Positions 11,555-37,864 of a DNA stretch of 37,864 bases are shown here, piece after piece. A program made the position numbers and the translations under genes. Numbering within the stretch: the stretch's first letter is position 1; each line of letters starts with the position of its first letter. This DNA is from an uncultured Eudoraea sp. (GTDB lineage: Bacteria > Bacteroidota > Bacteroidia > Flavobacteriales > Flavobacteriaceae), in the NCBI RefSeq assembly GCF_947258525.1, contig NZ_CAMYIP010000181.1, forward strand, positions 1,400-39,263. The letters run 5' to 3'. The notes below the pieces were generated by a model. That model saw only the letters and a list, made by a program, of their open reading frames with translations. It did no database searches and was not told where the DNA came from.

Positions 11555-11563
11555 TCTTTTCAG

Positions 11564-14365: not shown

Positions 14366-14372
14366 TTCAGTG

Positions 14373-15146: not shown

Positions 15147-15190
15147 TTAGAAGTCTTTTTACTATGTTGAGCAATTGATTTATTAGTAAA

Positions 15191-15949: not shown

Positions 15950-15979
15950 GTCACTTTAATTAGTTAAACAACCCAAACA

Positions 15980-16387: not shown

Positions 16388-16403
16388 TTAAATTTTTAAA
16401 AAA

Positions 16404-17483: not shown

Positions 17484-17485
17484 TG

Positions 17486-18703: not shown

Positions 18704-18731
18704 ATCATTAATTTTATTCAGTAATCAAAGT

Positions 18732-19511
18732 TTATCCGGAAATTAAATAGCCTCCGTCTGCAACATAGACTCCACCTGTCATATAGGATCCGGCATCTGA
18801 AGCCAGTAGCATGACCATACCGGCCATTTCTTCCGGAGCAGCTATCCGGCCGAGCGGCAAGGCTTTTGTTAATCCTTCAACCAATTTTTCATTTGTCCAT
18901 AAACCTTCGCTAAATTTGGTTTTGATCAGGCCAGGACACAATACATTAGCACGAATCCCATAGCGGCCCCATTCTTTTGCCTGATTCTTGGTTAGCATAA
19001 TCAAAGCTGATTTAGTGGCACTATACAATCCTAATCCGAATCCGGGAGTTATTCCCTCGACAGATGAAATATTTATAATACTTCCACTGCCCTTTTCCTT
19101 CATATGAGGCAGGACCAAATTGGATAAGATCCATGGTGCCTTTACGTTCACACTCATTATCTTATCAAAAACTGCTTCGTCTGAGCCCTCCAGAGGACCA
19201 TAATAAGGGTTTATCGCCGCATTGTTTACAAGGATGTCTATGCTTCCAAAATGCTCCATGGTCTTAGCAATAAGCCTTTGGCGTTGTTCAGAATCTCCAA
19301 TATGGCATTGTATCCCCACCGCTTCAAGGTCTGCTTCCCTAAATTCGTTGGCAACCTGTTCTACTGCGCCCTGTTTCCTGCTACTTACTACCACTTTGGC
19401 TCCATTTTCCGCAAGCCCTCTAGCAATAGACTTTCCTATTCCCTTACTCGATCCGGTAACTATAGCGACTTTACCACTGAGATTAAATTTAGATTTTATA
19501 CTACTATTCAT
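18732..19511 (-). CDS. Short-chain dehydrogenase (SDR)
   Basis: Oxidoreductase of 259 residues with TGSSKGIG at 19-26, NNAA at 97-100 in place of the more usual NNAG, catalytic Ser150, Tyr163 and Lys167 (YSATK), and YMTGGVYVADGG at the C-terminus. Arg45 after the second strand (SSRKQG) suggests NADP(H). It lies 28 bp before the acyl-CoA dehydrogenase gene. A reductase of 4-ketoacyl-CoA (LvaD role) or an alcohol dehydrogenase for a hydroxy acid would both fit. The specific substrate is not readable. Confidence 0.92.
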   Translation of the reverse strand: MNSSIKSKFNLSGKVAIVTGSSKGIGKSIARGLAENGAKVVVSSRKQGAVEQVANEFREADLEAVGIQCHIGDSEQRQRLIAKTMEHFGSIDILVNNAAINPYYGPLEGSDEAVFDKIMSVNVKAPWILSNLVLPHMKEKGSGSIINISSVEGITPGFGLGLYSATKSALIMLTKNQAKEWGRYGIRANVLCPGLIKTKFSEGLWTNEKLVEGLTKALPLGRIAAPEEMAGMVMLLASDAGSYMTGGVYVADGGYLISG

Positions 19512-19573
19512 TGGTTTCTGCTGACTTTATTGATTTTGGTAATTGTTCTAACACTTATGTCTCTAATTATTCC

Positions 19574-22376: not shown

Positions 22377-22940
22377 ATGGAATATCTGCTTAAACCCTGG
22401 CCCTGGTACGTTTCGGGTCCTTTGTTTACACTGGTAATGTTATTACTGATTTATTTTGGCAAAACATTTGGCATGTCTACTACACTCAGAACCCTATGCA
22501 GTATTGGTGGTGCGGGAAAATATTCTGATTTCTTCCGTTTCGACTGGAAAGCATATCGATGGAACCTCATTGTAGTCCTGGGTGCCATTATTGGTGGCTA
22601 TATTGCAGTTACTTTTTTGTCTGATGGTTCCACCATCGCTCTAAACGCGCAAACGGTTTCCGATCTAAGTGAACTAGGGTTTTATAACGCAGGTGAAGGT
22701 CTTTTACCCACTGAAATTTATGCATGGGATAATGTTTTAACCTTAAAGGGAATGGCGATTCTTATAATTGCCGGATTCCTGGTTGGTTTTGGAACACGCT
22801 ATGCAGGAGGTTGTACATCTGGTCATGCGATAACCGGACTGAGTAATCTTCAATGGCCTTCACTAATTGCAGTAATTGGCTTTTTTATTGGTGGATTAAT
22901 AATGACACATTTTCTATTACCCTTAATATTCAGCCCATGA
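22377..22940 (+). CDS. YeeE/YedE-type sulfur-compound transporter, first half
   Basis: Inner-membrane protein of 187 residues with about four or five hydrophobic segments. The signature GTRYAGGCTSGHAITGLSN carries the conserved Cys that handles the sulfur substrate in YeeE/TsuA-type proteins, where it passes thiosulfate or related compounds. Here the carrier is split into two genes: the stop of this gene overlaps the next start in an ATGA. The second gene supplies the other half with its own Cys motif. Substrate in this organism is inferred, possibly thiosulfate or persulfide. Confidence 0.88.
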   Translation: MEYLLKPWPWYVSGPLFTLVMLLLIYFGKTFGMSTTLRTLCSIGGAGKYSDFFRFDWKAYRWNLIVVLGAIIGGYIAVTFLSDGSTIALNAQTVSDLSELGFYNAGEGLLPTEIYAWDNVLTLKGMAILIIAGFLVGFGTRYAGGCTSGHAITGLSNLQWPSLIAVIGFFIGGLIMTHFLLPLIFSP

Positions 22941-23350
22941 AAATTTTAAAATTCTTATTAGTTGGTATTTTCTTTGGAATAGTCCTTGTGAAATCTGAGG
23001 CCGTTTCCTGGTACAGGATCTATGAAATGTTCAAATTTCAGTCATTTCATATGTATGGCATCATTGGTTCCGCCGTTTTATTAGGTGTATTGTTCATATG
23101 GTTATTCAAAGTATTTGGTGTTAAAAATATTGAGGGAAACCGGATAAGCCTGGTGCCAAAAGATAGTGGCTTTGTTCGGTATATTGTGGGGGGTACTGTA
23201 TTCGGATTGGGTTGGGCACTTGCAGGAGCTTGCCCGGGACCTCTATATGTTTTACTTGGCACGGGCGTAATAAGTATGTTAATTGTAATTGCTGCGGCAG
23301 TATTTGGGACATTTGTCTATGGCGTACTAAAAAGCAAACTTCCTCATTAA
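22937..23350 (+). CDS. YeeE/YedE-type sulfur-compound transporter, second half
   Basis: A 137-residue membrane protein. The start ATG at 22937 overlaps the TGA of the preceding gene (ATGA), typical of translational coupling. An upstream extension in the same frame is not needed. Hydrophobic segments flank the motif GLGWALAGACPGPLYVLLGTG, the second conserved Cys element of the YeeE/YedE (DUF6691-like) group. It would assemble with the 187-residue partner as one transporter. It converges on the GH94 gene with a 24-bp gap and no obvious terminator. Confidence 0.88.
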   Translation: MKILKFLLVGIFFGIVLVKSEAVSWYRIYEMFKFQSFHMYGIIGSAVLLGVLFIWLFKVFGVKNIEGNRISLVPKDSGFVRYIVGGTVFGLGWALAGACPGPLYVLLGTGVISMLIVIAAAVFGTFVYGVLKSKLPH

Positions 23351-23374: not shown

Positions 23375-25810
23375 TTATCCCATTATTACTTGCACAGCAT
23401 GTTCCTTGCCTTTTTCAAGTATTGGTATAATGTTAGAATTTATTTCTTTCCCATTAACCAGGATTTGTTTTATCCCTTTGCTAATATGTTTCGGGTTTTT
23501 GACATCGATATTGTAGGTAACATCCCTAAACACCCTTTTCATCTTAAAACCATCCCATGCAGATGGGATACAAGGATTTATCGCTAATCCATCATAGTCC
23601 GGACTAATTCCTAAAATATGCTGTGTAATTGCGTAGAAATTCCAGGAGGCGGTACCAGACAGCCATGAGTTTTTTGCTTCGCCAGGCTTATGTGCCTCTT
23701 TACCCGCGATCATCTGACAATAGACATAGGGTTCAACTTTGTGCAATTCTGACAATTCCTCTAGAAAGCTTGGTGCAATTTTAGTGTAATAATCATAGGC
23801 CTCATCTCCACGGCCCAGCATGGTTTCACCAATCATGATCCAGGGGTTGTTATGACAAAAGATTCCCCCATTTTCCTTATAACCCGCGGGATAAGTTGAA
23901 ATCTCGCCATATTCTATATAGTACTTGGTGAAGGCAGGATAATTCAGGACAATTCCAAATTCGCAATCCAAATATTTTTTTACCGCATTTAAGGACTTTT
24001 CAACCATCCCTTCTTCTTTGCCAATTTCTGCCATGGTGCACCAACCCTGGGATTCTATAAATATCTTTCCTTCTTCATTCTCTGATGATCCTACTTTGTT
24101 TCCAAAATAATCGTATGCCCGCAGGTACCAGTTTCCATCCCAACCATGTTCCATAACTGCTTCACTCATATCATCTACGTGTACCTGAGCGGCTTCAGCT
24201 TCTTCCTCTTTGCCAACCCGTTTACAAAGCTTTACATATTCTTTACCGTACACCACAAAAAGACCAGCAATCATTAAAGATTCGGCTGTACCTCCCTTTT
24301 GGTTCTCCGTAGTTTGAAAAGACTCATTAGGATCCTCGGAGAAGCAATTTAAATTAAGGCAGTCATTCCAATCTGCTCTGCCAATTAATGGTAATTTATG
24401 CGGTCCCAAATTATTTACAACATGGTAAAAAGAAGCTTTTAGATGTTCAAAATGTGATTTAGCACGTGCAGAATCATTATCAAAGGGTACCAATTCATCT
24501 AACAGGGAAAAATCTCCGGTTTCCTTTATGTATGCAGTAGTAGAAAGGATCAGCCAGAGTGGATCGTCATTAAAATTTCCTCCTATTGCAGCATTGCCTT
24601 TTTTGGTCAGCGGTTGATATTGATGGTAACAGGAGCCATCTTCAAATTGTGTAGATGCTATATCATAAATGCGTTCCCGGGCTCTTTCCGGAATTTGATG
24701 AACAAATCCAATTAGATCCTGATTAGAATCCCTAAAACCCATTCCACGGCCTATGCCCGATTCAAAGAATGAGGCGGATCTAGACATATTAAACGTTACC
24801 ATGCATTGGTATTGATTCCAAATATTTACCATCCTATCGAGCCGGGGGTCCGCAGATTGTATTGAGATTTTACCTAATAAATCATCCCAATAGGCCTTCA
24901 AATTTTCAAAGGCACGGTTTACCTTTTCTGCAGTATCAAAGGATGAAATCATTTCCTGTGCCGGCTGCTTATTAATGACCGATTTACTTTCCCATTTATT
25001 ATCTTTCTCAACCTCAACATAACCCAGCATGAATATCAATTCTTTTTCCTCTCCGGGCTCAAGTTCTATTTCCAGGTAATGTGATGCAATTGGCGACCAG
25101 CCGTGAGCAATTGAATTTTTAGATTGTCCTTCGCTAACTACATCAGGGGCATCCAAACCATTATAAAGGCCAGCAAAAGTCTCCCTGTCTGTGTCATAAC
25201 CTTTTATTGCGCCATTAACGGAGTAAAAAGCATAATGGTTTCGTCTCTCCTTAAATTCTGTCTTGTGGTAAATTACGGAGTCTTTTACTTCAACTTCACC
25301 GGTGGAGAAGTTTCTCTGAAAATTGGTCATATCATCTTCAGCATTCCATAAGCACCATTCAATAAAGGAAAACAGCTTTAATTGTTTACTATTTGATGAA
25401 GAATTCTTTAAGGAAACCTTTTGAATTTCGCCCCAGAAACCCAGAGGAATAAATTGCAGAACTTCTGCCTCTATCCCGTTTTTGGTTCCTTTGAACTTTG
25501 TATAACTCATACCATGACGGCATTCATAATGGTCCAATTCGGTTTTCACAGGTTTCCACCCGGGAGACCAAATAGTATCACCATCTTTAATATAAAAATA
25601 CTTACCACCGTTATCCGCCGGAATATTGTTATATCTGTATCGGGTTAATCTTCGAAATTTTGCGTCTTTATAAAAAGTGTAGCCACCACCGGTATTTGAT
25701 GTTAATGAGAAAAAATCTTTATTTCCAAGATAATTAATCCAGGGATATGGAGTTTTGGGATTTGTAATTACGTATTCTCTGTTTTCATCATCAAAGTATC
25801 CGTATTTCAT
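23375..25810 (-). CDS. GH94 glycoside phosphorylase (cellobiose/laminaribiose phosphorylase-like)
   Basis: Cytoplasmic enzyme of 811 residues with no signal peptide. The N-terminal beta-sandwich ([20 protein letters not shown], then PWINYLGN and [20 protein letters not shown]) and the [18 protein letters not shown] segment are hallmarks of GH94. The ADWND catalytic motif is at 479-483 ([12 protein letters not shown]), followed by a C-terminal beta domain. GH94 enzymes split beta-glucosidic disaccharides with phosphate to give alpha-glucose-1-phosphate. In this locus, next to GH17 enzymes, laminaribiose is a plausible substrate, but the length also fits cellobiose phosphorylases. It is the most downstream gene of the locus, 212 bp after the GH17 gene. 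Confidence 0.9.
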
Positions 25811-26022
25811 TTTTTACGAAGTTTTTAGATTATTGAGTAGCCGATAGCAAAACCTAAAAGTAAAAAATGTTCTTTTAACAAAGATCCGGAATACAAAATG
25901 AATTCTAAAGGTGAGAATAAATGCTCATCCCGGTCTTATAGCCTGGACCTGTGAATAAAGAAATTTCCTTACTCATATACAAATCAACCCGAATTTTGGA
26001 AACCTCTTAAAGTCAAAAATCT

Positions 26023-26964
26023 CTATCTGACTGTTTCACGAGAGTATAGTTCACTCATGACCAGTTTTGGAGTTCTGTCAACTTTAAATAATCCCCAGTG
26101 TTTTTCCGGTTCCAGAGCTTCTTCCGATCCTTTCCATGATTCATCAAAAGCTTCAAACACGAATGTAAGCACCTCTGCTTCTTCACTCCAATCAACTAAA
26201 TCATTATAATAAATACGTTGATGTTCTTCACTTACATTACTCGGGCAAATTCCTCTTCCGTTTGAAAAAGTTGTCCACCCTGCCTCTGTAATTACCACCG
26301 GTTTATTTGGATAGGTATCAGCTACCGTATAATAATTTTGCCTGGTATATTCCATAGCTTCATGAATGTTCTTATACTCCCATACAGGGTAGGTATGGAT
26401 AGATATAAAATCTACTTCTTCAACCAGGTCTTTTAACTTATCAAGCCAGGGCAGATAATTTTCACAAAAAGTGACGGGTTGTTTGGCTCCTTTTTTAATC
26501 ATCTTCACATAATTGACAACGCTATCAACGGGTACATAATGGTCAGTCCAATCAACACATGCTTCATTACCGGCAGACAGAGAGAAAATAATATTGGGAT
26601 ATTTGTTTGCCAGGCGTATCAATTTATTGATCTGCGAGACATTTGCGACTTTGTTTTTCTCGAGTTGCTCTTCAGAATAAGATCCGCCCCAGGGACAACC
26701 ATAATTATTTACTTCGGCAACAATATAGGCGCCAAGCATCACTTTAAAATTAAGGTTCTCTTTATCAATGACCTCCAAAACTGTTTCGGCATGTCTATCA
26801 CAGTCGTATAATCTAAGGTATCTCCAGTGATTATGAAGAATTAACAGATCTTCTTTGATTTCATCATAGCTGGGAAAAACGTCTCCAGGCCTCTGACCTT
26901 CTCGAAAACCTGAATAACAAATTGCCCTTCCTGCTTCTATATTTAATTCTTTAGTATAACTCAT
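26023..26964 (-). CDS. GH17-like beta-1,3-glucanase, cytoplasmic
   Basis: A TIM-barrel protein of 313 residues without signal peptide. The acid/base Glu134 (LSAGNEACVDWT) and nucleophile Glu227 (VVITEAGW) match GH17, whose members cleave or transfer beta-1,3-glucans. Also typical are YLRLYDCDRHAE and DFISIHTYPVW. The ICYSGFREGQRPGD start resembles the neighbour at 27005 (LCFSLYEDGQRPGD), so the two probably arose by duplication and then diverged. The stop-to-start gap between them is 40 bp. The lack of an export signal suggests action on imported oligosaccharides. Confidence 0.87.
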   Translation of the reverse strand: MSYTKELNIEAGRAICYSGFREGQRPGDVFPSYDEIKEDLLILHNHWRYLRLYDCDRHAETVLEVIDKENLNFKVMLGAYIVAEVNNYGCPWGGSYSEEQLEKNKVANVSQINKLIRLANKYPNIIFSLSAGNEACVDWTDHYVPVDSVVNYVKMIKKGAKQPVTFCENYLPWLDKLKDLVEEVDFISIHTYPVWEYKNIHEAMEYTRQNYYTVADTYPNKPVVITEAGWTTFSNGRGICPSNVSEEHQRIYYNDLVDWSEEAEVLTFVFEAFDESWKGSEEALEPEKHWGLFKVDRTPKLVMSELYSRETVR

Positions 26965-27004
26965 ATTTCAATAACAACTTTTATAAACTATTGGAATATT
27001 AACC

Positions 27005-27913
27005 TTAAAATTTTAGTTTTTCATGTTTGTCCCAAAGCCCCCAGTAAGCACCAACGTCACCCTCTGCCCCAACTTTCCAGGATTCGTCAAAGGATGAAAA
27101 GTAGAATATATCTATATCTTCTTTCGCCGACCATACCTGGGTATTAATAAAATATTTCATAGCATTTACTTCAGAGGCAAATGCTGCATTTAAATTACCC
27201 CCTTCACTCGGCCAACCAGTTTCAGTAATAATTACTTTCTTCCCCTTACCTGCTTCAACGGCCTGAGCAAACATTTGTTTCATATGGAGCAAAGAATATT
27301 CCAATGGGCAACTTTCCCAATAAGGATAACAATTTGCCAAAATCACATCAGAAGCCTCCGTTATTCTTGGATGAACGCTAAACTCATAATAAGCATCTAC
27401 ATAGCCCATTGGAACATCCGGAATCGCTTCTTTTACCCTGTACATGAATTCTAAAAGCTCATCTTCACTTAAATCATTGCGATACAACACTTCATTACCA
27501 ACTGCTGCTATATCTACGTGGCCGTCTTTAGCCAATTGAATAAGGCCTTCTATTTCTCTTTCATTAATTTCCGGATCATCACCCAACCAGGCACCTACCA
27601 GGGTTTTTATGCCAAATTCACGAGCTATTTTGGGAATAAATTCATTACCGTCTGTACATGAAAACGAACGAACCCATTTAGTATAAGGCTGAATAATTTT
27701 CATTCGCCTTCTTACTTGTTCCTCAGTAATAATATCCCCCGGCCTTTGCCCATCTTCATATAAGCTAAAACATAATCCATGCATTCCGCTTTCCATGGTT
27801 TTTCTCCATAGCTCTTTTAATTTTTCTGTTGAATATTTACCAAAATCAACACCTGATGATTCTGTAAGATCAATTCCTTTTAGGGAAAACTCATGTCCTT
27901 CTCTATACGACAT
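27005..27913 (-). CDS. GH17-like beta-1,3-glucanase, cytoplasmic
   Basis: A 302-residue GH17 protein without signal peptide. Glu141 (AAVGNEVLYRND) is the expected acid/base and Glu231 (VIITETGWPSEGG) the nucleophile; the ETGWPS motif is a close match to the family signature. FDESWK near the C-terminus is shared with the 26023 protein. It may be an exo-acting glucanase or a transglycosylase releasing short products for the phosphorylases. It is encoded 107 bp downstream of the sugar symporter gene. Confidence 0.9.
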   Translation of the reverse strand: MSYREGHEFSLKGIDLTESSGVDFGKYSTEKLKELWRKTMESGMHGLCFSLYEDGQRPGDIITEEQVRRRMKIIQPYTKWVRSFSCTDGNEFIPKIAREFGIKTLVGAWLGDDPEINEREIEGLIQLAKDGHVDIAAVGNEVLYRNDLSEDELLEFMYRVKEAIPDVPMGYVDAYYEFSVHPRITEASDVILANCYPYWESCPLEYSLLHMKQMFAQAVEAGKGKKVIITETGWPSEGGNLNAAFASEVNAMKYFINTQVWSAKEDIDIFYFSSFDESWKVGAEGDVGAYWGLWDKHEKLKF

Positions 27914-28020
27914 ATTATATATATTTAATTTTTAGTTTTTATTCTATAACCCAAAAAAAATTCAATATCCACTAACCCTGGGGAATGTAATTTTTTTGGT
28001 TTGAAAATAGGAAGTTAATT

Positions 28021-29448
28021 TTAGTTTTTTGCTTTCTTACGTTTAACTAATTCTGCACTAATTTCATTGGCACGTTCTTCCGTAAGGTCATAATTGCGCA
28101 TTACATAGATGGCAACGAGAGTTCCAAGAATTGGGAATCCGGAATAAAATATCCTTAGACCCAGAATCGCTCCATCAGGCTGAACAGCCGCATCCGGATT
28201 AAATCCAACTACAGACATTATCGTACCTGTTAATAATCCTGCAATAGCGAAGCCAAACTTTACCATCCACCAATAAATAGCGCCAAAAATACCCTCTCTT
28301 CGTTCTCCTGTATTAAGTTCATCCAAATCGATAACATCGGCGGTCATAGACATCATCAGCGTAAATAAACTACCAATACCAAAGGCGAAAAAGGGAAGAG
28401 CGATAATAAACATATAGGGTTTTCCGGGAATAAATAGAAACCAAAGCATTATATATCCTAAAACAGAAATAGCTTGTGAGACAATAAAGGCTTTTTTCTT
28501 TCCCATTTTTTTGGACATGAAAGTGATAATAGGAATCACAATAAATGTAGTAGCCAAAGCTCCAACACTACCGAATAAAGTAGGCCAAACCCCGGCGGCT
28601 CCGGCATCACCGCCAAACAAATAATAAACAACGATAAAAAATGAAAAACTCGCGATAGTATAAAAGGTATTATAGATCAAAAATGTAGCAATGCACAATT
28701 GTCTGAAAGGCAATGATTTAAATGCCTCCTTAAAACCTACTAAAATCTTTTTTAAGCTTCCCCCGATTCCTTTAAAACTCAAAGGGGAGTAATCTGCATT
28801 TAGCGTGGATTCACTTTTTATAAAAATGGCAGGTACCATAGCAAAAATCATGCATATAATTCCTACCCATACGGCAAGGGTCCTTGTGGCTACATCTGCA
28901 GATTCAAACAATCCCTGGTCATACATAATTACCCAAAACCAGGGCGCTATCACCCATGCCCATTGCCCGATCCATTGGGCAATAGCCATAATATCAGTAC
29001 GTTCATGAAAATCATTGCTCATTTCATAACCCATGGCCACATAGGGTACACTGAAAATGGTCAATCCCAAATAGAATACAAAGGACCATAATAAAAAATA
29101 GGTGAAATTATAATCAAGTCCATTTACACGATACAATTGCCACATAATGACAAATGAAATACCCATGATCAGAGCACCCAAAAACACATAATGCCTCCTT
29201 CTTCCCCATTTAGATTTGGTATTGTCCGAAATGAATCCCATAATTGGGTCGGTGATGGAGTCGAACACCCTGGGCAGAAAGAACAAGACTCCCCACATCC
29301 AGCCCGGAAAGCCTAAATCCTGTACTAAAACCACCATAAATATGCCCAGCGCTGCAGGAAACATTTGATTGGCAAGCATACCGATCCCGAAAGCTACTTT
29401 CTGCCCGTACGGGACTTTATTTTTTACTGCTGCACTTTGATTTGACAT
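28021..29448 (-). CDS. GPH-family sugar:cation symporter (MelB-like)
   Basis: Inner-membrane transporter of 475 residues with about twelve hydrophobic segments. Signatures of the glycoside-pentoside-hexuronide group are DSITDPIMGFISDNTKSKWGRRRHYVF, read in parts as DPIMGFISD and KWGRRR, and MMSMTADVIDLDELNTGERREG near the C-terminus, with a GIFGAIYWW stretch after it. It likely brings beta-glucan oligosaccharides or glucosides into the cytoplasm for the GH17 and GH94 enzymes encoded next. The coupling ion is unknown. Confidence 0.9.
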   Translation of the reverse strand: MSNQSAAVKNKVPYGQKVAFGIGMLANQMFPAALGIFMVVLVQDLGFPGWMWGVLFFLPRVFDSITDPIMGFISDNTKSKWGRRRHYVFLGALIMGISFVIMWQLYRVNGLDYNFTYFLLWSFVFYLGLTIFSVPYVAMGYEMSNDFHERTDIMAIAQWIGQWAWVIAPWFWVIMYDQGLFESADVATRTLAVWVGIICMIFAMVPAIFIKSESTLNADYSPLSFKGIGGSLKKILVGFKEAFKSLPFRQLCIATFLIYNTFYTIASFSFFIVVYYLFGGDAGAAGVWPTLFGSVGALATTFIVIPIITFMSKKMGKKKAFIVSQAISVLGYIMLWFLFIPGKPYMFIIALPFFAFGIGSLFTLMMSMTADVIDLDELNTGERREGIFGAIYWWMVKFGFAIAGLLTGTIMSVVGFNPDAAVQPDGAILGLRIFYSGFPILGTLVAIYVMRNYDLTEERANEISAELVKRKKAKN

Positions 29449-29517
29449 GTTTTTAGAGTTTTAGATTACTATTGGTTATTTAGGTTTATTTCAGATTTTA
29501 ATCTCATCCGATAACAA

Positions 29518-30555
29518 TTACAAATTTGTTAAAGATAGATCGGTGTATTTTTCTTTTAACACAATAAATGCTTCTTTCTTGTTTCTTTCAATATCTACCA
29601 TTCCCCAATACTCCTCGTTTGGAGTACCGTCATAAGGAACACCTGTACTATTTGGAGCCCAGCCCCCCGGATCCTGTGTTTCTGTATTTCCTGCTTTCCA
29701 CCAGCCATCTGTAAATGAGAACATGGTTACGCCGGAACAAATATCAGTGGCATTGAACACAGCATTTAAAATATTTCTATTGGCATCTGCCTGTGCTTTT
29801 TCGTTATTTCCTTCCGCATAGCCATCTTTTGAAATGGTCATAAAACTATCTCCTCCTGCTTCGGATAAATACATGGGTTTAGAACTAATTGCGCTCCATT
29901 CAGTAAAAATTGTTGTAGGATCATCCCAGCGATACACATTCATTCCCCAAACATCAATGTTTTCCGATAAAGACAGGGCTAATGAATCAGGCAATTCACC
30001 ATGAGCAGTTGTAACCGGGTGTAAAGGATCTTTTTCGTGAATAAGCTCAGCTGCTGCATTCATTGTAGTATACCAGTTTCTTAAATCATCATCAAACCAT
30101 TCGGGATGATAGTTATACTCGTTACCAAGTTCCCAAAGCAGTATAGCATTATGATTTTTATACATATTGACATAATCGATAAACGTTCCCGACTTAATAT
30201 CGTTATTTCCATTCTGATCATATCCAAAACCGAGTATTACTTTGAGACCAGCTTCCTGTATCTGGTCAAGGACAGATTTATCCGCAATTGGTTCATATAC
30301 CCGAATAGTGTTAATACCTGCCTCTGCCATTAAAGACAAATCCTGAGTTAAATTACTAAAGTCTCTCCTCTCACTCCCCTTTGGCACCGGATGATAACAT
30401 ATCCCCTTAATTACATAAGGGGTATTATTTACCAATATCTGGCGTCCTGAAATAGTAACGATATCAGTTTTAGGATTGTCTGTGCAAGAAACAAGAATCG
30501 CGGCTAAAAGGATTATTAAGCCGCTTAAATATTTCAATTGTATTTTTTTAATCAT
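29518..30555 (-). CDS. Clan GH-A glycoside hydrolase lipoprotein (GH2/GH5/GH72-like barrel)
   Basis: A 345-residue lipoprotein with signal to Cys24 (ILVSCTDN). The barrel starts at ILVNNTPYVIKGICYHPVPKG. Acid/base Glu146 (LLWELGNEYNYH) and nucleophile Glu232 (MYLSEAGG) are visible. It lacks the beta-sandwich domains of full GH2 enzymes. The N-terminal KGICYHP pattern resembles GH72 transglucosylases as well as GH2/GH5 barrels, so the family stays open. Acting at the cell surface or in the periplasm, it probably trims or remodels beta-glucan. It follows the GH17 lipoprotein gene with a 23-bp gap. Confidence 0.8.
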   Translation of the reverse strand: MIKKIQLKYLSGLIILLAAILVSCTDNPKTDIVTISGRQILVNNTPYVIKGICYHPVPKGSERRDFSNLTQDLSLMAEAGINTIRVYEPIADKSVLDQIQEAGLKVILGFGYDQNGNNDIKSGTFIDYVNMYKNHNAILLWELGNEYNYHPEWFDDDLRNWYTTMNAAAELIHEKDPLHPVTTAHGELPDSLALSLSENIDVWGMNVYRWDDPTTIFTEWSAISSKPMYLSEAGGDSFMTISKDGYAEGNNEKAQADANRNILNAVFNATDICSGVTMFSFTDGWWKAGNTETQDPGGWAPNSTGVPYDGTPNEEYWGMVDIERNKKEAFIVLKEKYTDLSLTNL

Positions 30556-30578
30556 TATCCTCTTGGGGTAGATTAGAA

Positions 30579-31874
30579 TTATTCAGGAGCTTTGGTTTCA
30601 CTGGCAAGTGGCGGGACCATAACATCTTGCATCAAAGCATCACTATCTCCGTCATAGGTCTTTGTAATGGGTTCCCCGTTTCTGGTTAATCCTTCAAAGA
30701 CACCTTCGTCTACTAAACTCCACATTGGATATTTGGCCTGACTTTTTATATTTATCATTCCGAAATGATTCTCTGAACCTTTTGGATTTTCAGCATCTTT
30801 CCATGGTTCATCAAAGCCTTCGAAATAAAAACATGAAATACCCGCTGCATTGGTCCAGTCGCGCATGTGCTTGTAATACAACGCTTGCTTATATTCGTCA
30901 GTGGCTCTGGAACCTGAGGATCCATAGAACCCATCAGAGGTCGTTGCCCATCCGGTTTCTCCAATATGTATTGGTTTGTCTACCCCTATACTTTTCATAT
31001 AGCCTGAAACACTGTCGTATTGCGACATTGCAAACTCTTTTGCACGAAGCATAGCTGCATCTATCTTTTCAATATCGGATAATTGCTCTTCTTCTTCAGG
31101 AATTCCCCAAAATTCAGGATTATAATGTGTGTTATGATAGGGATAGGTGTGCATGGAGACGTAATCTACGGCATTATATAATTTTTCAAGATCTTCGGTA
31201 TGATATTCAGCACCGCCACCACCCCATGATGAAAAGTCATCAGAGCTTGTTATCCATAAATCTTCAGGAAGTTTACCCTCTTTTTTTAAATCCTGGAGGT
31301 GGGTTACCCATTTTAATATCACTCTCGGTTGCACATAATAAGTTTCCGCCCATTTTACCATTGCCTCGTTACCCACAGCAATTATTTTTACAATATCCGG
31401 ATATTGATTTGCCAAATATGATGCTACTAAAATTTGATTTGCATTGGCTTCACTTTCCCGTTCGTGATCAGGGGGCACAGCGGTCCATGCATTTTTACAA
31501 TCTATCCATGCACCTAACATCACATACATTTCAAAATCGGAATCTTCTTCTTTTAATTCGCTAATAGCCTTCAATAAATTAGTGGCCTGGGGTAAGTGAA
31601 CTTTATAAGTGCGTACAATTTTAACACCCATGGCTGCCAATAGCTTCATATCTTCCTTAAGTTCTTCAATGGCGGGTTCAACATCATGATCAACATCCCT
31701 GTAACCCCCATATGACATTGCCAAAAATTCCGGGTTACCCAGAATGTCCTTTGCGCTTAAACTTGTTACTTCCTTCACAGAATTAGTTTTAATCTCTTTT
31801 TTAGTATTGTCTTTGCAAGAAAAAACTATTATAGCTAATAGCAGGTAAATAGTTGTTTTCATAATTTTTTTCAT
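30579..31874 (-). CDS. GH17-like lipoprotein beta-1,3-glucanase
   Basis: A 431-residue lipoprotein from the ATG at 31874 (MKKIMKTTIYLLLAIIVFSC, Cys20). A longer start at 31904 would overlap the preceding gene by 20 bp and spoil the signal peptide. The GH17 barrel has Glu170 (IAVGNEAMVKWAE) and Glu306 (HIGETGWATTSDG), and YVSMHTYPYHNTHYN. Its FDEPWK region and C-terminus resemble the two cytoplasmic GH17 proteins. It would cleave beta-1,3-glucan outside the inner membrane. It lies 10 bp from the giant phosphorylase gene. Confidence 0.88.
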   Translation of the reverse strand: MKKIMKTTIYLLLAIIVFSCKDNTKKEIKTNSVKEVTSLSAKDILGNPEFLAMSYGGYRDVDHDVEPAIEELKEDMKLLAAMGVKIVRTYKVHLPQATNLLKAISELKEEDSDFEMYVMLGAWIDCKNAWTAVPPDHERESEANANQILVASYLANQYPDIVKIIAVGNEAMVKWAETYYVQPRVILKWVTHLQDLKKEGKLPEDLWITSSDDFSSWGGGGAEYHTEDLEKLYNAVDYVSMHTYPYHNTHYNPEFWGIPEEEEQLSDIEKIDAAMLRAKEFAMSQYDSVSGYMKSIGVDKPIHIGETGWATTSDGFYGSSGSRATDEYKQALYYKHMRDWTNAAGISCFYFEGFDEPWKDAENPKGSENHFGMINIKSQAKYPMWSLVDEGVFEGLTRNGEPITKTYDGDSDALMQDVMVPPLASETKAPE

Positions 31875-31884
31875 GTCTCTATAT

Positions 31885-34800
31885 TTATTTTTTAATGGAA
31901 ACAATTATTCTATTGATTTCTCCGGTTCGTTCAAAAACCTTTTTGCTTGTAGCCTCATCAAGAATCAATTCTTCATATTCCATAATTGAATCCTTGCTAA
32001 AGACAATCTTCAAATTCTCATTTTCCGCCAATTTGTAAATTATTGGTATTTGACAATATGTAAATCCAAGTGAATTTTCTTCCAGTTTCAATTCTTTTTG
32101 TTGCTTATCCACGTTGGTATATGTCAATGATCCGCCCTTTTGTAAAAATTCTTCTTTTCTTAAAAGATCAGGTTTAAATTGAAGCTTACCTTTATTTACC
32201 ATGACGCCCAGCTCTCCAATTCTACTCAATATATCTTCTTTTACCTGACCTGTCATCCCGGGTTGCTGCGCGCCTTTTCCTGCTGGAGTATGTGAATAAG
32301 GATCAGTTGGAAACGCTCCATAAAGTTCAGGGGATTTATGCACTCCAATACCTTCGTTAATTTCATAATAATGATCTAATAGTCTGCCTACTATTTCATC
32401 ATTTTCATTGTCTTCTATGGCTTTTAGGCAACATTCCTGAACAGCTAATAGCAGTTTAGATACCATATGCCAATAAATAGAGCCCAGGCCTTCGTAACCA
32501 AAGAATGTCCCTGACCTTCCGGTAAATGATTTGTGATCAAATACCTCTTCAAAAATATTTAATACCAATTCCTCATCTTGTTCAATAAGCTTACCGTATT
32601 GCTCATTTGGAAGTTCAGAAAGCGCATTTTTTAGGCTATTGGCATTATTGAAAGAGCCATTAAAATGGTAATTGCCTGCAACATCCTTTTCTATAATTTG
32701 TTTGTTTCCATCTTTAAGCAACTGCCTCAGTAAGTTGGACTGTTCTACTTTTTTTGAAGCTATATTATTCTTATCTACAAATCTTGGCAATTCCTTGTTG
32801 GGATAAAGTATATAGCTATACTGATCTTCTCTGAACAGGCTACTCGCCTTGAGGCCATCAAGTACCGCAAGACATGATTCTGAAGTGAGATAGCCGGCAC
32901 TAAGAACTGCAACCTGTCCTTCCAGCATTTCACTCAAATATGAAATAGAGATCTCATTTTCATTCTCAACAGCCATCAGGTTATAGGCATGATACATGTT
33001 ATCCGCTCTTTTGTTCGCATCAATGGAATGATCAAGATATTCTAAAACCAGCTCTACAAAATTGAGTATATCAGTTTTGGAAATATCTTTTTTGCTCCCA
33101 CTAAATCCATTAGCATAAACATTGGCTCTGTAGGCACTGCCAGCCTCGCCTAAGCCATCCAGAATTAGTTTTCTATCAGCATCTGATATTTTGCTTTTCA
33201 AAGTATATGAATACTGCTCCAATGTGGAGGCCAGACCCTGAAAAAATGTAACCAATTCTTCTGAAAGTGCGGTATTGGTAAATTTTGCGTTTAAAAGTAA
33301 GTTCTGAAAGAATTTCAAAAATCTTCTTAGGTAATAAAGAGTAACCATAGAAACACCGTTGCCAACCAAAGCATTGTTGGCATCATTCCATTCTGGTCTC
33401 TGGGTATTAAGCCAAATTCCTCCTTCGGGAATTAAGTTAGAGCACTTGGACATTACGGTAGCCAGTAATTTTTCCAGAAGATTTACACTATAAATATCAG
33501 AATCCTTTGCAGTCATAAGAGCACCATCTGCACCCAGTTCACTTTTCCTTTTGTCTATCTGATCATTAAGATCATGATCATAATCAATAGTATCCTTAGG
33601 ATTTTTAAGGGTATCCTGATAACTTTTAATTTTATAAGGAACATTCGCATAAACAAATAGTTCCTGATTAAAGTATGCTTCTAATTTGGAGGGATAATAA
33701 TTTTGAATAATCTCCAAAAATTTCAGGAGATAAATTATTTGGTGATCGCCCCAATAGCCAATATATGACCAAGGATCATCCGGCTCTATTACTTCCCAGT
33801 CAAAGCCATCTTTAGTAACACGATATGGATTATAGCCTTCAAATGTAGTGGCATTTAAAAACTTGTGAATCATACTATCAATAAATTCGGGATAAGAGTG
33901 CGCCAGAGCCTCCCAGTTTTGGAAAATATCTCGCCAGTTACCCTCATAATCCAGGACTTTAGATCCATCAATTTCACTGCGTGTATTTATTGAAAATCTA
34001 TTCCAAGGCCTACTTGGATCGCCATGCCTTCGGCTAAATTTTAGAGGCATGTACTCAAAACAAAGACGTTTAAAATTACTATCCGGACTTTGATCCGCGA
34101 TTTTTCGTAATTCCTTTAGTGAAAATGTAACAGGAATTTCCTCCAATATCTTTTTATTATCCTTAGAGACTGCTGTATTTGCCTTTTCAATATACCTTAC
34201 AAAATCGTTCTTGTCTATATTGTAACCGTCATCAAAAATACCACCTCGCATTATATTAAATAATACGTTTGAAAAGTGTCTTGTATTTTGAAGTTTATCC
34301 GATGTTACTTGCAAACCATCCGCGGAATAGGTCAGTTCTTTCAGGTTTTGTGTACCCAATTCTATATCCTCCAAAACTTTATTATATAAACCTTTTTCGG
34401 ACTTTAATAATGAAGATATAGCTTGCACATCGGATGGTCCCTGATTTAAGTTAGCCACAATTATCCAGTCTTTATCCGAATTGGGACTAAGTTTAACTTT
34501 TGAACTGATGAAATAAGCGCTCTTTTCTGCTTTGATATCAATTTCGTCATTTATTGGCAATCCTTTTCTAAAATTATCAAGCTGTAGAGAGGAAATTAAA
34601 TGTGTAGGTTTGTTACTCCCAAGAGACCATGCAATAGTCGACTTTAGCGCTTCGCTTGGCTCCGCCTTATCAACAATTACTGCGCTTAAAGCATAAATGC
34701 CCAGTCCTATTTCTACTTCCAGTTCACTTTTTTTATAGGCATCGGCAAGGTTGCTTCTGTTATTCTGCAAGTCCTCATGGATACCGTAAGGCAATATATT

Positions 34801-35346
34801 TTGAATTCCGTCTAAAATAGTTAGCTGAACGTCATTTTTTGAATTATTTACGAGTGTCGACTTTTTAACAAATCCATACAAGTCAGATGAATTCCATTGA
34901 TAGCGGAATGTTAAGCCCAAATCCTCATTAATTTCTTCAAAGATTATTTTGTTGCCGAAACTGTTTTTATATAAATTTCTGGTAATTGTATATACCCCTT
35001 CGTAACGCTCAGAAAAAGGCTCCCAAAGTAAAGACTTGCCATCTTTATGGATTTGAAGTATGGTCTTACTGCCAGTAATCTCATTCGATTCTGTAATTTT
35101 ATCATCCGTATAATAGGGAAAAATTGCGCTGTCACTATTCTTTCTTCCGGCACTCAGTGCCCCATTACTGGAAATAAACATCCAATGATCCGAATCACTT
35201 ACAATACTCATGAAAAATGGTCTCATGGCATGGCTGTTTGAAATTTTATAAAAACTTTCATTTTCCATGAGTACAGGTTCTCCTTTTATTTCGGGTTTTT
35301 CAAAATGAGCTTTTATATCACCTAAGTATATTTTGCGTTGATTCAT
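31885..35346 (-). CDS. Giant GH149/GH161-type beta-1,3-glucan phosphorylase (putative)
   Basis: A 1153-residue cytoplasmic protein without signal peptide. The N-terminal 300 residues look like a GH94-type beta-sandwich (SYRISNSHAM-like start, WMFISSNGALSAGRKN, TITRNLYKNSFGNKIIF). The barrel holds FSRRHGDPSRPWNRFSI, DYEGNWRDIFQNWEAL and IGYWGDHQIIYLLKFL. The motif RPEWNDANNALVGNG with Asp655 is the counterpart of the ADWND catalytic site of GH94. Size and motif fit the GH149 and GH161 families of beta-1,3-glucan/oligoglucan phosphorylases; I cannot decide between them by eye. It would release glucose-1-phosphate from longer laminari-oligosaccharides, complementing the GH94 enzyme. It is placed among GH17 genes. 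Confidence 0.78.
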   Translation of the reverse strand: MNQRKIYLGDIKAHFEKPEIKGEPVLMENESFYKISNSHAMRPFFMSIVSDSDHWMFISSNGALSAGRKNSDSAIFPYYTDDKITESNEITGSKTILQIHKDGKSLLWEPFSERYEGVYTITRNLYKNSFGNKIIFEEINEDLGLTFRYQWNSSDLYGFVKKSTLVNNSKNDVQLTILDGIQNILPYGIHEDLQNNRSNLADAYKKSELEVEIGLGIYALSAVIVDKAEPSEALKSTIAWSLGSNKPTHLISSLQLDNFRKGLPINDEIDIKAEKSAYFISSKVKLSPNSDKDWIIVANLNQGPSDVQAISSLLKSEKGLYNKVLEDIELGTQNLKELTYSADGLQVTSDKLQNTRHFSNVLFNIMRGGIFDDGYNIDKNDFVRYIEKANTAVSKDNKKILEEIPVTFSLKELRKIADQSPDSNFKRLCFEYMPLKFSRRHGDPSRPWNRFSINTRSEIDGSKVLDYEGNWRDIFQNWEALAHSYPEFIDSMIHKFLNATTFEGYNPYRVTKDGFDWEVIEPDDPWSYIGYWGDHQIIYLLKFLEIIQNYYPSKLEAYFNQELFVYANVPYKIKSYQDTLKNPKDTIDYDHDLNDQIDKRKSELGADGALMTAKDSDIYSVNLLEKLLATVMSKCSNLIPEGGIWLNTQRPEWNDANNALVGNGVSMVTLYYLRRFLKFFQNLLLNAKFTNTALSEELVTFFQGLASTLEQYSYTLKSKISDADRKLILDGLGEAGSAYRANVYANGFSGSKKDISKTDILNFVELVLEYLDHSIDANKRADNMYHAYNLMAVENENEISISYLSEMLEGQVAVLSAGYLTSESCLAVLDGLKASSLFREDQYSYILYPNKELPRFVDKNNIASKKVEQSNLLRQLLKDGNKQIIEKDVAGNYHFNGSFNNANSLKNALSELPNEQYGKLIEQDEELVLNIFEEVFDHKSFTGRSGTFFGYEGLGSIYWHMVSKLLLAVQECCLKAIEDNENDEIVGRLLDHYYEINEGIGVHKSPELYGAFPTDPYSHTPAGKGAQQPGMTGQVKEDILSRIGELGVMVNKGKLQFKPDLLRKEEFLQKGGSLTYTNVDKQQKELKLEENSLGFTYCQIPIIYKLAENENLKIVFSKDSIMEYEELILDEATSKKVFERTGEINRIIVSIKK

Positions 35347-35435
35347 TTAATGATAATTTGATTGTTCTAAACTTAAAAAAAACTCCTGAATTAATATATT
35401 ACTTCAAACTTTATATTCTAATTTTATCTAGTCAT

Positions 35436-36755
35436 TTAGTTTACCATAAATGGAATATTCGCAGTTGCTGAATGATTATTTCCATCATCTGCATAAACAA
35501 ATAACCTGTATGTTCCTTTTTCCTGTACTTTAATTTTAGCAGCTCCATCTTTATGTGAAATTATTGCTCTTTCCAGGGCGGCCGGGCGTTCTTCATAATC
35601 ACCTCCTTCTTTGGTCTCTGTGCTTTCATGCAATACTTCCCAAGTATAGCTTATGGTATCGTCTTCAAAATCAACCAGTTTAATTTCAGCATTGTACATC
35701 TTATCGGCTTGTAAAAAAACATTGTCGTAGGCCGTCTTTCCATCTAAAGTAAATGATACAATCTGAGGCGTTCTATTATCCGGCCATTCTCCATTCCATA
35801 TGTAGTGCATTACATCTACAGATTCTGTTTCCTGACCATTTTCCAGAAAGATACCATACCAGGTTGGTGTACGCTCTTGTTTATTCCCCCAGAGAAAAAC
35901 GTAAGAACCAATACATTGTAAGGTATCTGCCTCAATACCCTGCTTAAAACGCTTTAAATAATTGGCTGCTTTAAGTGAGCTGTGCTCTTCAATGGGAGCT
36001 CCCCATTGTGTCTTTGGAACTTCCCAATGCCCCGTGGCACCCCATTCTGTAATCATATAAGGGCCATCCCATCCATACTCCCTGATCAGGGCAGGTACTG
36101 CAGGTAATTCTCCATACATCTGGATAGACAAAATATCGAGATCCGGACATCGTTCTTTGATGTAATTAATTTCTTTTTGCGAGATGCCGGAAAGGCTTGT
36201 AGTGGTAGGATGATTTGGATCTAACTCATGGATCATTCTTGAAATTTCATTAACAGCATCCCACACTTTAGGATTCTCATAACTGAGGTTTAGTTCGTTG
36301 CCTATACCCCATATCAAAAGGGCAGGATGATCCTTTATGCTTATCACCTCTTTTTTAATTCTTTCCAATTGCCCATTTACGGCAGTTTCATCATTATAAT
36401 CAAAGCCATGGCGTTCTCTGCCAACATTAATTCCCATGGTTACCATTAAGCCATTTTCCTGCGCTTCATCCAGAACTTCCAATGCTGTTTTTTGACCATT
36501 GTCGGTTTGCCAGGTCCTGAAGGAGTTACCCTTATGGCTGGCAAGAGAACTGACATCTCCAAATTCCAAACCCGCCCCCTTAATATAAAAAGGTTCTTTA
36601 TTGACTAATAGAGCATATTTACTATCCTTGAACATAATTTCAACCCTGGCCGGGCCCGGGTTGAACTCAGTATCACCTGCAATATCTTTTTTAACGGAAT
36701 TATCTTTGCATGAAAAAAAAACACAAAAACAAACTAAAAAAATAATTTGTCTCAT
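35436..36755 (-). CDS. GH2-type TIM-barrel lipoprotein with C-terminal beta domain
   Basis: A 439-residue lipoprotein (signal to Cys16, FFSCKDN). The catalytic barrel shows Glu154 (LLIWGIGNELNLS) and Glu237 (PYMITEWGATG), clan GH-A positions as in GH2/GH5. From about residue 340 an Ig-like beta domain follows (PQIVSFTLDGKTAYDN to GTYRLFVYADDGNNHSATA) and may bind carbohydrate. Lipidation puts it at the outer or inner membrane surface. It is 8 bp downstream of the MFS gene and 89 bp before the giant phosphorylase. It is probably an accessory beta-glucanase or glucosidase; the substrate is inferred from context. Confidence 0.8.
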   Translation of the reverse strand: MRQIIFLVCFCVFFSCKDNSVKKDIAGDTEFNPGPARVEIMFKDSKYALLVNKEPFYIKGAGLEFGDVSSLASHKGNSFRTWQTDNGQKTALEVLDEAQENGLMVTMGINVGRERHGFDYNDETAVNGQLERIKKEVISIKDHPALLIWGIGNELNLSYENPKVWDAVNEISRMIHELDPNHPTTTSLSGISQKEINYIKERCPDLDILSIQMYGELPAVPALIREYGWDGPYMITEWGATGHWEVPKTQWGAPIEEHSSLKAANYLKRFKQGIEADTLQCIGSYVFLWGNKQERTPTWYGIFLENGQETESVDVMHYIWNGEWPDNRTPQIVSFTLDGKTAYDNVFLQADKMYNAEIKLVDFEDDTISYTWEVLHESTETKEGGDYEERPAALERAIISHKDGAAKIKVQEKGTYRLFVYADDGNNHSATANIPFMVN

Positions 36756-36763
36756 TTATTGAT

Positions 36764-37864
36764 TTATTTCCTGATTAATATTTCCTGGACTTCTTCAAGT
36801 GTTCGTCCCTTAGTCTCAATAACAAATTTATGTACAAAGAATATGGCGCAGAAGGATAATAATGCATAAAGGGCGAAAGTCACCGTTGGTCCCAGATTGG
36901 ATAATTCCCAGGGAAATACCTGGGTGACAGAAAAACTTACCAAAGAGTTAAAAAAGCCCACTGCTGAAATTGCAATTCCTTTTATTTTACTGGGGAAAAT
37001 CTCTGAAATCAATGTCCACATAACCGGTCCCAAAGAAATGGCAAAGGAGGCAACATACAGCAGGATAGCAATCAATACCAAAGTAGCGTTGATTTGTATA
37101 AAATTAGTGATTTCATTACGTTTAAACTTCAGAAACAATTCCTGATTCATGGCAGGTTCAACCTCCGCAAAAAGTGCAGACTGGCTCTCGTATGACCTAC
37201 CTTTAAAATCTGATAATGCTGTTCTAATTTCATTGTTGCTTATTTTAGCAAGGGTCTTCTCATTAAAATCATAGGTTGCACTATTAAATGCGAAAGCAGC
37301 CATCAAAAGTGCAATAGTCATAAAAGTAGTCCCTATCAGTAAAAGTGGTTTTCGGCCCAACTTATCAATTAGCCATATAGCCACCAGGGTAAATACAAGG
37401 TTCGTAAGCCCTACCACAATAGCCTGTAAAAATGAGGAATCTGTGCTTCCTCCGGCTTGTTCAAATATCGTAGGGGCATAATAAAAGACCGCATTTATCC
37501 CTGTAATCTGCTGAAAAAATGCTATCCCAATTGCAATTATCATGATGGTGCGATTTCTGTATTTAAACAGATCTGCAAGGGTTCCTTTTTCTTCTTTAGC
37601 AGATATTCCCCGCTGAATCTCTGCAATGGTAACTTCGGCATATTCTTCACCGCCAATCTTAGCCAGAATCTTTCTTGCCAATTTTACTTCGTTCAATTTC
37701 CTTATCAACCATCTTGGACTTCTTGGTACTGTAAAGAGTGCTAAAAAATAAATTGCTGCAGGAATGGCTTCAACACCCAACATATAGCGCCAGCTTTCAC
37801 CTTCCATATTTACAAGGAAATAATTGGAAAAATAGGCAACGGAAATACCAATTACTATATTCAA
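36764..37864 (-). CDS. Sugar-porter MFS transporter (5' end beyond window)
   Basis: 366 residues are visible; the start codon lies outside, since the frame is open to the window end and the reading begins inside transmembrane segment 5 (NIVIGISVAYFSNYFLV). Sugar-porter signatures are PRSPRWLIRK, QQITGINAVFYYAPTIF, IDKLGRKPLLLIG and the end FVIETKGRTLEEVQEI. An inserted loop of about 70 residues between segments 9 and 10 is longer than in XylE-like carriers. It probably imports glucose or a short glucoside released outside. With the GPH symporter it gives the locus two unrelated importers. Confidence 0.92.
   Translation of the reverse strand: MNIVIGISVAYFSNYFLVNMEGESWRYMLGVEAIPAAIYFLALFTVPRSPRWLIRKLNEVKLARKILAKIGGEEYAEVTIAEIQRGISAKEEKGTLADLFKYRNRTIMIIAIGIAFFQQITGINAVFYYAPTIFEQAGGSTDSSFLQAIVVGLTNLVFTLVAIWLIDKLGRKPLLLIGTTFMTIALLMAAFAFNSATYDFNEKTLAKISNNEIRTALSDFKGRSYESQSALFAEVEPAMNQELFLKFKRNEITNFIQINATLVLIAILLYVASFAISLGPVMWTLISEIFPSKIKGIAISAVGFFNSLVSFSVTQVFPWELSNLGPTVTFALYALLSFCAIFFVHKFVIETKGRTLEEVQEILIRK

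Follow-up and report, generated by a model that had tools for sequence, protein, structure and literature searches.

Laminarin, an algal storage sugar, is one of the major carbon pools of the sea, and GH149 loci offer a known route to use it that saves bond energy as glucose-1-phosphate. In an uncultured Eudoraea sp., a GH149 gene lies in a cluster with a GH94 gene at its end. How would two such enzymes share the work? The first-pass annotation of the window (the whole stretch of 37,864 nucleotides analysed here) described an energy-saving beta-1,3-glucan route built around two phosphorylases, in which the giant enzyme takes long oligomers and GH94 takes disaccharides. We propose, with a probability of about 0.75, that the window carries a laminarin PUL of the described type with a cellobiose-type GH94 neighbour, and that the work is split by linkage and not by chain length.

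Gene organization of the locus

Gene content, family membership, catalytic residues and synteny were observed directly. The features are as follows.

22377..23350, plus strand: YeeE/YedE-like gene pair; first gene PF04143 (Sulf_transp), second assigned by eye
23375..25810, minus strand: GH94 of the cellobiose-phosphorylase clade, 811 amino acids, predicted cytoplasmic; R355, D361, D483, E636, Y640, K645 and H653 conserved
26023..26964, minus strand: GH17_313, cytoplasmic GH17; catalytic Glu pair E134 and E227, Val where transglycosylases have the aglycone Tyr
27005..27913, minus strand: GH17_302, cytoplasmic GH17 of MlGH17B type; Tyr144, Trp199 and Glu200 present, residues associated with beta-1,6 transglycosylation
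28021..29448, minus strand: MFS_2/GPH sugar symporter; a relative in genome G025, 67% identical, is fused to a GH17 domain
29518..30555, minus strand: lipoprotein TIM-barrel glycosidase, clan GH-A-like, GH2_C-like, 345 amino acids; likely catalytic E146 and E232, by motif
30579..31904, minus strand: GH17 lipoprotein, probable endo-beta-1,3-glucanase; MlGH17A-like position and export signal
31885..35346, minus strand: GH149 beta-1,3-glucan phosphorylase, 1153 amino acids; R472/D473, W653-N654-D655, E952 and H960 conserved
35436..36755, minus strand: GH158 lipoprotein, probable surface endo-beta-1,3-glucanase; N-E154 and E237
36764..37864, minus strand: sugar-porter MFS carrier, incomplete, extending past the window into an assembly gap

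The YeeE/YedE-like pair stands tail to tail with GH94; it lies outside the pathway and serves as a landmark of the chromosomal site. Export was assessed as the 15-residue hydropathy maximum within the first 45 residues. GH94, GH149, GH17_302 and GH17_313 stayed below 0.4, whereas the three lipoproteins (GH17, GH158 and the TIM barrel) ranged from 2.1 to 2.7. Thus, the two phosphorylase candidates and two GH17 proteins without export signals, and the three lipoprotein glycosidases, are as first annotated, each at the coordinates first given; one of the lipoproteins is itself a GH17, which brings the GH17 proteins of the locus to three. The lipobox pattern matched the 345-residue lipoprotein only, and the cysteines of the other two (in VFSC and FFSC) were read by eye. 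Profile matches also bore out two different sugar carriers, MFS_2/GPH and a sugar-porter MFS.

The 439-residue lipoprotein belongs to GH158 (9oro, 311 bits; 6pal, 261 bits), with similarity over its full length and the catalytic Glu pair, placed by motif, present. A structure model of the 345-residue glycosidase, built from two sequences, had a mean pLDDT of 40. Y144, W199 and E200 of GH17_302, and the Val at the Tyr place in GH17_313, were located by motif, MlGH17B itself being outside the alignment. Sigma-70 and terminator scans of the locus gave counts no higher than shuffles, and the strict flavobacterial promoter motif had no minus-strand match in it.

The 1153-residue protein belongs to GH149

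This protein had been described as GH149/GH161-like. The profile search decided for GH149: it matched the NCBIfam equivalog NF058639 at 1824 bits (cut-off 1150) and PDB 6hq6 at 1629 bits. Against 9qqk, a GH161 entry, it scored only 63 bits, with the best stretch confined to residues 55-228, and GH161 membership was rejected. The signature residues of GH149 are present, namely the WND catalytic loop (W653-N654-D655), the RD sugar-phosphate motif (R472-D473), the phosphate His H960, and E952; they were placed against PMC6771811 after a shift of 19 between the two numberings, determined by eye. Judged from its sequence, the cytoplasmic GH149 should yield glucose-1-phosphate from beta-1,3-glucan. 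The characterised GH149 Pro_7066 alone converts laminaritriose to glucose (PMC6484121). Therefore, a GH94 step is not needed in the beta-1,3 route.

The GH94 protein resembles cellobiose phosphorylase

The GH94 protein contains PF17167 (563 bits) and the GH94 supersandwich domain. It is 68.8% identical to the cellobiose phosphorylase CtCBP over 811 residues, and it matched 3qde, the Clostridium thermocellum enzyme, at 1365 bits and 3rrs at 1131 bits. In contrast, 6ggy, the sole laminaribiose phosphorylase among the listed matches, gave only E 3e-8 over a partial match (554-779). The active-site and acceptor residues of cellobiose phosphorylase are kept (R355, D361, D483, E636, Y640, K645 and H653); the mapping was counted by eye from the alignment and the letters were then checked. 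In C. uda numbering these are R362, D368, D490, E649, Y653, K658 and H666. The role of Y653 in that numbering is given in PMC10318527. This GH94 looks like a cellobiose phosphorylase acting on a beta-1,4 disaccharide, a linkage specificity that rests on the identity and the conserved residues. Thus, of the route first proposed, the laminarin locus with a cytoplasmic GH149 is supported, and the GH94 disaccharide step within a beta-1,3 pathway is not. The split between the two enzymes by oligomer length was rejected as the main reading on the same likeness and because laminaribiose is already a substrate of characterised GH149, unlike GH161 (PMC6484121). In the available text of PMC10811738, GH94 is listed only among families without a clear substrate; the available main text of PMC11345257 mentions neither GH94 nor GH149.

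Import genes and conserved gene order

The first-pass annotation expected outer-membrane import genes outside the window, which is supported. Past 37864, the contig continues beyond the sugar porter and the assembly gap with a GH30 lipoprotein gene and stops at 41676. Two other contigs of the same genome (C230 and C117) carry SusC, SusD, a gene for a surface protein and a regulator gene, the latter two genes being named by likeness and by eye. The SusC halves on the ends of C117 and C230 are 62-64% identical to SusC of G025 (the C230 half has no Pfam match), and SusD and the regulator are 73% and 48% identical to their counterparts in the G025 locus. The best matches of this SusC/SusD are those of the G025 locus; a physical link to the contig of the window (C181) is suggested by PrmA/TpiA synteny only. 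Related genomes repeat the order GH149, GH17 lipoprotein, (TIM barrel), (GH30), MFS_2, GH17_302, (GH17_313), and SusC/SusD lie upstream of this laminarin-type order in G025 and G032.

Proposed pathway

From these data we infer the activities, the order of the steps, co-regulation and which way the site changed over time. Laminarin would be cut and debranched by lipoproteins at the surface or in the periplasm (GH158, GH17, the 345-residue TIM barrel and the GH30 beyond the window). The pieces would cross the outer membrane via the SusC/SusD encoded on the other contigs, and MFS carriers would pass short oligomers on to the cytoplasm, where GH149 would phosphorolyse beta-1,3-oligomers to glucose and glucose-1-phosphate, and longer oligomers may be remodelled or cut by GH17_302 (transglycosylase-like) and GH17_313. 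A beta-1,4 disaccharide would be handled by the neighbouring GH94. Because GH94 is of the cellobiose type and GH149 needs no disaccharide partner, this split between beta-1,3 and beta-1,4 linkages is likely.

In the same genome, matches over the cut-offs comprised two GH16, five GH3, one GH9 and one GH5 (a second GH5 was below its cut-off), and none of these is on C181. Hydrolysis may compete with phosphorolysis, since five GH3 matches are present. No link to GH94 is visible around the GH9 or the GH5 gene.

Co-occurrence of GH94 and GH149

GH149 was found in 71 of the 199 sampled genomes of the family (E limit 0.001), and GH94 of cellobiose type in seven (E <=1e-50), the window genome being counted in both. 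GH149 lies <=20 kb from GH94 in only three of these seven. Therefore, GH94 was rejected as a conserved member of GH149 loci, and "built around two phosphorylases" overstates its place: GH149 belongs to a conserved core. In the flanks of 80 GH94 loci (tblastn, >=100 bits), the MFS carrier of GH94 occurred 43 times, GH5 12 times and GH9 9 times, so that GH5 or GH9 was near GH94 in 19 loci; one of the GH5 and two of the GH9 were confirmed with Pfam. In G032, a GH94-carrier pair stands between PrmA-TpiA and YeeE/YedE, the same landmarks as in the window genome, without the laminarin cluster. GH94 probably occupies an older site of its own, and in the window genome and in G104 the laminarin locus adjoins that site. 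Being on the same strand and at the cluster end, GH94 could be co-transcribed with the cluster.

The arrangement in a second flavobacterial lineage (G025, L067 and L068), where GH94 is also at the end of a laminarin-type cluster, hints at a real coupling. It bears on a linkage relay, which we consider unlikely: GH149 would take the beta-1,3-linked non-reducing glucose (e.g. of G3G4G), and the cellobiose left would be phosphorolysed by GH94. It is similarly improbable that the two enzymes, paired in two lineages, phosphorolyse every bond of mixed-linkage beta-1,3/1,4 oligomers in the cytoplasm and that the laminarin locus thereby also serves mixed-linkage glucans of cell walls. The relay agrees with the cellobiose-type GH94, with the reversible addition of glucose by Pro_7066 to beta-linked disaccharides, those with a beta-1,4 bond among them (PMC6484121), and with a Bacteroides uniformis locus with GH158 and GH16 that serves laminarin and mixed-linkage glucan alike (PMC7157763). 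Moreover, six of the seven GH94 holders have GH149 (P 0.009; five of six without the window genome, P 0.02; relatedness ignored, n=199), and one of the two lineages has an added GH16. However, the locus has no component that is specific to mixed-linkage glucan, and characterised GH158 and Formosa GH17 are laminarinases (PMC7157763; PMC6246565). In G032 and in the two Eudoraea contigs most similar to the window, GH94 is not directly adjoined by the cluster, although these Eudoraea contigs end 1.4 and 2.5 kb upstream, and the usual GH94 partner carrier is absent from the window genome. The GH16 proteins of L068, L065, L066 and contig C79 of the window genome are below the cut-off of every 1,3-1,4-glucanase model; thus, the L068 GH16 cannot decide between laminarin and mixed-linkage glucan.

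We give very little credence to a single beta-1,3 pathway in which GH149 takes long oligomers and GH94 takes laminaribiose, as in Gram-positive GH161-GH94 tandems: laminaribiose phosphorylases do occur in GH94, and such tandems are published (PMC6484121), but this GH94 groups with cellobiose phosphorylase far from 6ggy, and characterised GH149 itself takes laminaribiose. That GH149 and GH17_302 partly run in reverse, building or branching a beta-1,3-glucan store from glucose-1-phosphate, is highly improbable. In its favour, GH149 is reversible in vitro, and MlGH17B, which is of the GH17_302 type, lacks a signal peptide and acts as a beta-1,3-glucanosyltransglycosylase; its authors suggested a storage role (PMC11005184, PMC13188888). 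Against it stand the surface glucanases of the locus, its import genes (by synteny) and the degradative role that authors have given to GH149 clusters (PMC5827456; PMC6484121).

We therefore keep the laminarin PUL with a linkage split. If GH94 works as a cellobiose phosphorylase alongside GH149 in one cell, phosphorolysis would cover both beta-1,3 and beta-1,4 bonds between glucose units. In that case, the use of laminarin would extend in a simple way to mixed-linkage glucans; otherwise, the locus cautions against taking GH94 beside GH149 as a laminaribiose step.

Comparison with known systems

Full-text searches, judged by title and the start of the abstract, returned no report of a laminarin locus with GH149 and a cellobiose-type GH94. 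GH149 with a cytoplasmic GH17 and an MFS carrier is a published laminarin-PUL layout, and a cytoplasmic GH17 beside GH149 has already been described (PMC5827456; PMC13188888 with PMC11005184). The laminarin PULs of Muricauda lutaonensis and Formosa sp. Hel1_33_131 share GH149, GH17, GH30 and an MFS carrier with our locus, and likewise have a second GH17 that either lacks a signal peptide or is joined to the carrier (PMC13188888, PMC6246565); the Muricauda PUL has a LuxR-type regulator (PMC13188888). In contrast to Formosa, where they are fused, MFS and GH17 are separate genes in the window. Our locus differs from both by the extra cytoplasmic GH17_313 and the GH94 neighbour (the term GH94 is absent from both texts as available), and from Muricauda by GH158, a term absent from the available text of PMC13188888.

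Type II GH149 clusters of Alteromonadales have the same GH149, cytoplasmic GH17 and pfam13347 MFS (PMC5827456), whereas our locus has SusC/SusD type import (by synteny) and Bacteroidota lipoprotein glycosidases. As in GH161-GH94 tandem loci, two phosphorylase families adjoin (PMC6484121); however, GH149 replaces GH161, GH94 is of the cellobiose type, and characterised GH149 needs no disaccharide partner. Compared by sequence alone, GH94 is like CtCBP (69% identity over 811 residues, acceptor-site residues kept) but adjoins a laminarin locus. Overall, the laminarin PUL is an ordinary one whose neighbour is modestly unusual.

Gene layout of the window locus

From 37864 to 23375, gene calls together with profile and PDB matches gave a run of minus-strand genes, which are listed here in the order of transcription.

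Genes of the minus-strand run
First, minus: sugar-porter MFS, incomplete
Second, minus: GH158
Third, minus: GH149, 1153 residues
Fourth, minus: GH17 lipoprotein
Fifth, 29518-30555, minus: lipoprotein glycosidase, 345 residues
Sixth, minus: MFS_2 symporter
Seventh, minus: GH17_302, a cytoplasmic GH17 protein
Eighth, 26023-26964, minus: GH17_313, a second cytoplasmic GH17 protein
Last, minus: GH94, 811 residues

The genes are spaced by -20 to 107 bp, except for 212 bp ahead of GH94. The gene content reported in the first-pass annotation (a GH149/GH161-like protein, GH94, GH17 proteins, lipoprotein glycosidases and inner-membrane sugar carriers) was all found in the run. Past the window edge, an assembly gap lies within the sugar porter gene, a GH30 lipoprotein gene follows and the contig ends at base 41676. 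Elsewhere in the window, the 9194-21385 run, with most of its genes on the minus strand, contains genes named by eye as an SDR oxidoreductase and an acyl-CoA dehydrogenase, and looks like a fatty-acid-type oxidation cluster.

The 1153-residue protein is a GH149 and the GH94 resembles cellobiose phosphorylase

The 1153-residue protein scored 1824 bits against the NCBIfam GH149 equivalog (cut-off, 1150) and 1629 bits against the solved GH149 structure 6hq6. In the aligned part compared, with a chain offset of 19 derived by eye, it keeps the residues named for the characterised GH149, Pro_7066, in PMC6771811 (W653-N654-D655, R472-D473, E952 and H960), as well as K833, E840 and Y843, the three residues of the Pro_7066 surface-site set that were compared. 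The beta-1,3 reading proposed earlier is sound for this enzyme. GH149 is present in 71 of 199 sampled family genomes, the window genome counted, and is above the cut-off in 70.

The best matches of GH94 were cellobiose phosphorylases, 3qde (1365 bits) and 3rrs (1131 bits), from C. thermocellum and C. uda, respectively. Identity to the C. thermocellum enzyme was 68.8% over 811 positions. In contrast, 6ggy, the sole laminaribiose phosphorylase among the matches listed, gave a partial match (E 3e-8). By a mapping counted by eye, with the window letters verified separately, GH94 R355, D361, D483, E636, Y640, K645 and H653 correspond to C. uda R362, D368, D490, E649, Y653, K658 and H666, which are active- and acceptor-site residues of that enzyme. 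Y653 is discussed in PMC10318527. According to PMC6484121, Pro_7066 degrades laminaritriose to glucose, and GH161 halts at laminaribiose. Because a characterised GH149 reaches glucose unaided, no additional laminaribiose enzyme is needed here. Thus, the proposed division by length, with long oligomers for the GH149/GH161-like enzyme and disaccharides for GH94, was not borne out.

The best account is a laminarin locus of known kind with a cellobiose phosphorylase as its neighbour. GH149 and GH94 could also act as a linkage relay on a mixed-linkage glucan, but no feature of the locus requires this. The genome has five GH3 and two GH16 matches above the cut-offs, together with a single GH9 and a weak GH5 match on contigs other than that of the window. 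Because these enzymes are present, hydrolytic beta-glucosidases could compete with phosphorolysis; cellobiose might be supplied by the GH9 enzyme.

Related neighbourhoods and import genes

We compared the surroundings of GH149 and/or GH94 in 11 related genomes: the six remaining sampled genomes with GH94, and the five top-scoring GH149 holders without it. The core gene order was repeated across them, with losses and swaps. In the related genome G025, where several names were assigned by eye, the order is regulator, SusC, SusD, surface protein, GH16, GH30, sugar porter, GH149, GH17 lipoprotein, TIM barrel, GH30, MFS fused to GH17, GH17_302, GH17_313, GH16, CotH, two transporters, ribokinase-like gene, MFS537 and GH94.

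When the window genome was searched with G025 SusC, its own SusC appeared split in two, with one half closing contig C117 (62% identity) and the other opening contig C230 (64%). The C117 half has the plug domain; the C230 half had no match in the Pfam search and is followed by a Pfam-confirmed SusD and a surface-protein gene. Ahead of SusC, C117 carries a regulator-like gene (48% identity to that of G025) and then runs into PrmA, TpiA and DoxX (named by eye). G104, a member of this genus, has a shortened block of sugar porter, GH158, GH149, GT17-like gene and GH94, bordered by PrmA, TpiA and DoxX at one end and by YeeE/YedE at the opposite end. Because G104 has both landmark sets around one block, we infer that C117, C230 and the window contig would belong to one chromosomal site.

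Distribution and history of GH94

GH94 occurs in seven of the 199 genomes, six of which have GH149 (P 0.009, or 0.02 minus the window genome; relatedness uncorrected). The two genes are less than 20 kb apart in three of the seven (window, G104 and G025). Among the best 80 of at least 529 GH94 relatives, with full 10-kb flanks in 45, tblastn (at least 100 bits) found the MFS carrier in 43, GH5 in 12, GH9 in nine (either one in 19), GH149 in one and the GH17_302 type in one. This usual carrier is absent from the window genome, where the best match (28% identity) is its own MFS_2. G132 (C7:371289-379243) has a pair of GH94 genes arranged in alternation with a pair of MFS carriers; its second GH94 shares only about 40% identity with that of the window.

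In the GH94 tree, the window groups with G104 and Eudoraea rows, separate from a group of G025, L067, L068 and L069. Both lie within one 15-row flavobacterial set (support 99, quick method), inside which branching is poorly supported. Of the four members of the latter group, three (G025, L067 and L068) have laminarin-type genes upstream of GH94; the L069 contig begins 5.5 kb upstream, and that stretch has no laminarin-type genes. With the G104/window neighbourhoods, this makes two groups in which GH94 is preceded by a laminarin cluster, and their outer flanks differ. In G032, the interval between the PrmA/TpiA and YeeE/YedE landmarks contains just GH94, the MFS carrier that goes with it and two more genes (260 and 93 residues), and the GH149 locus is elsewhere. 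The two nearest GH94 contigs among the matches listed (Eudoraea MAGs, 91% and 90% identity) keep the YeeE/YedE side and have other genes directly upstream; they stop 1.4 and 2.5 kb upstream of GH94, so that a more distant GH149 is possible. In Eudoraea MAG Ww136 (L064, around 2474-2764), GH94 appears to be in two pieces and the open frame begins late; contig coverage is low (2.2), and the split is possibly a sequencing error.

GH17 proteins and comparison with fused carriers

By motif in the alignment, GH17_302 has both catalytic glutamates and Y144, W199 and E200. In PMC11005184, this Tyr/Trp/Glu set is tied to beta-1,6 transglycosylation in Muricauda lutaonensis MlGH17B, an enzyme without a signal peptide, and Formosa FbGH17B has Met at the Tyr place. 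Among 12 aligned GH17_302-type sequences, MlGH17B not included, ten have Tyr and two have Leu (G120 and the GH17 domain fused to the G025 MFS carrier). GH17_313 has both glutamates and Val in place of Tyr; among the loci annotated, the only others that carry it are G025, G133 and L067, in each of which it comes immediately after GH17_302. The TIM-barrel lipoprotein glycosidase (29518-30555) gave only weak matches in Pfam, NCBIfam and PDB; G025, G017 and G163 also have it in their laminarin clusters, and in Ancylomarina (L092) it lies close to GH94.

The absence of an export signal from the unfused GH17 suggests that the fused GH17 domain of G025 faces the cytoplasm; the text available from the Formosa paper does not state which side its fused GH17 faces. 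In the window (27005-29448), MFS_2 carrier and GH17 are encoded by two genes, whereas they are fused in G025 (781 residues; C1:2450857-2453202, loci L045/L046) and likewise in Formosa.
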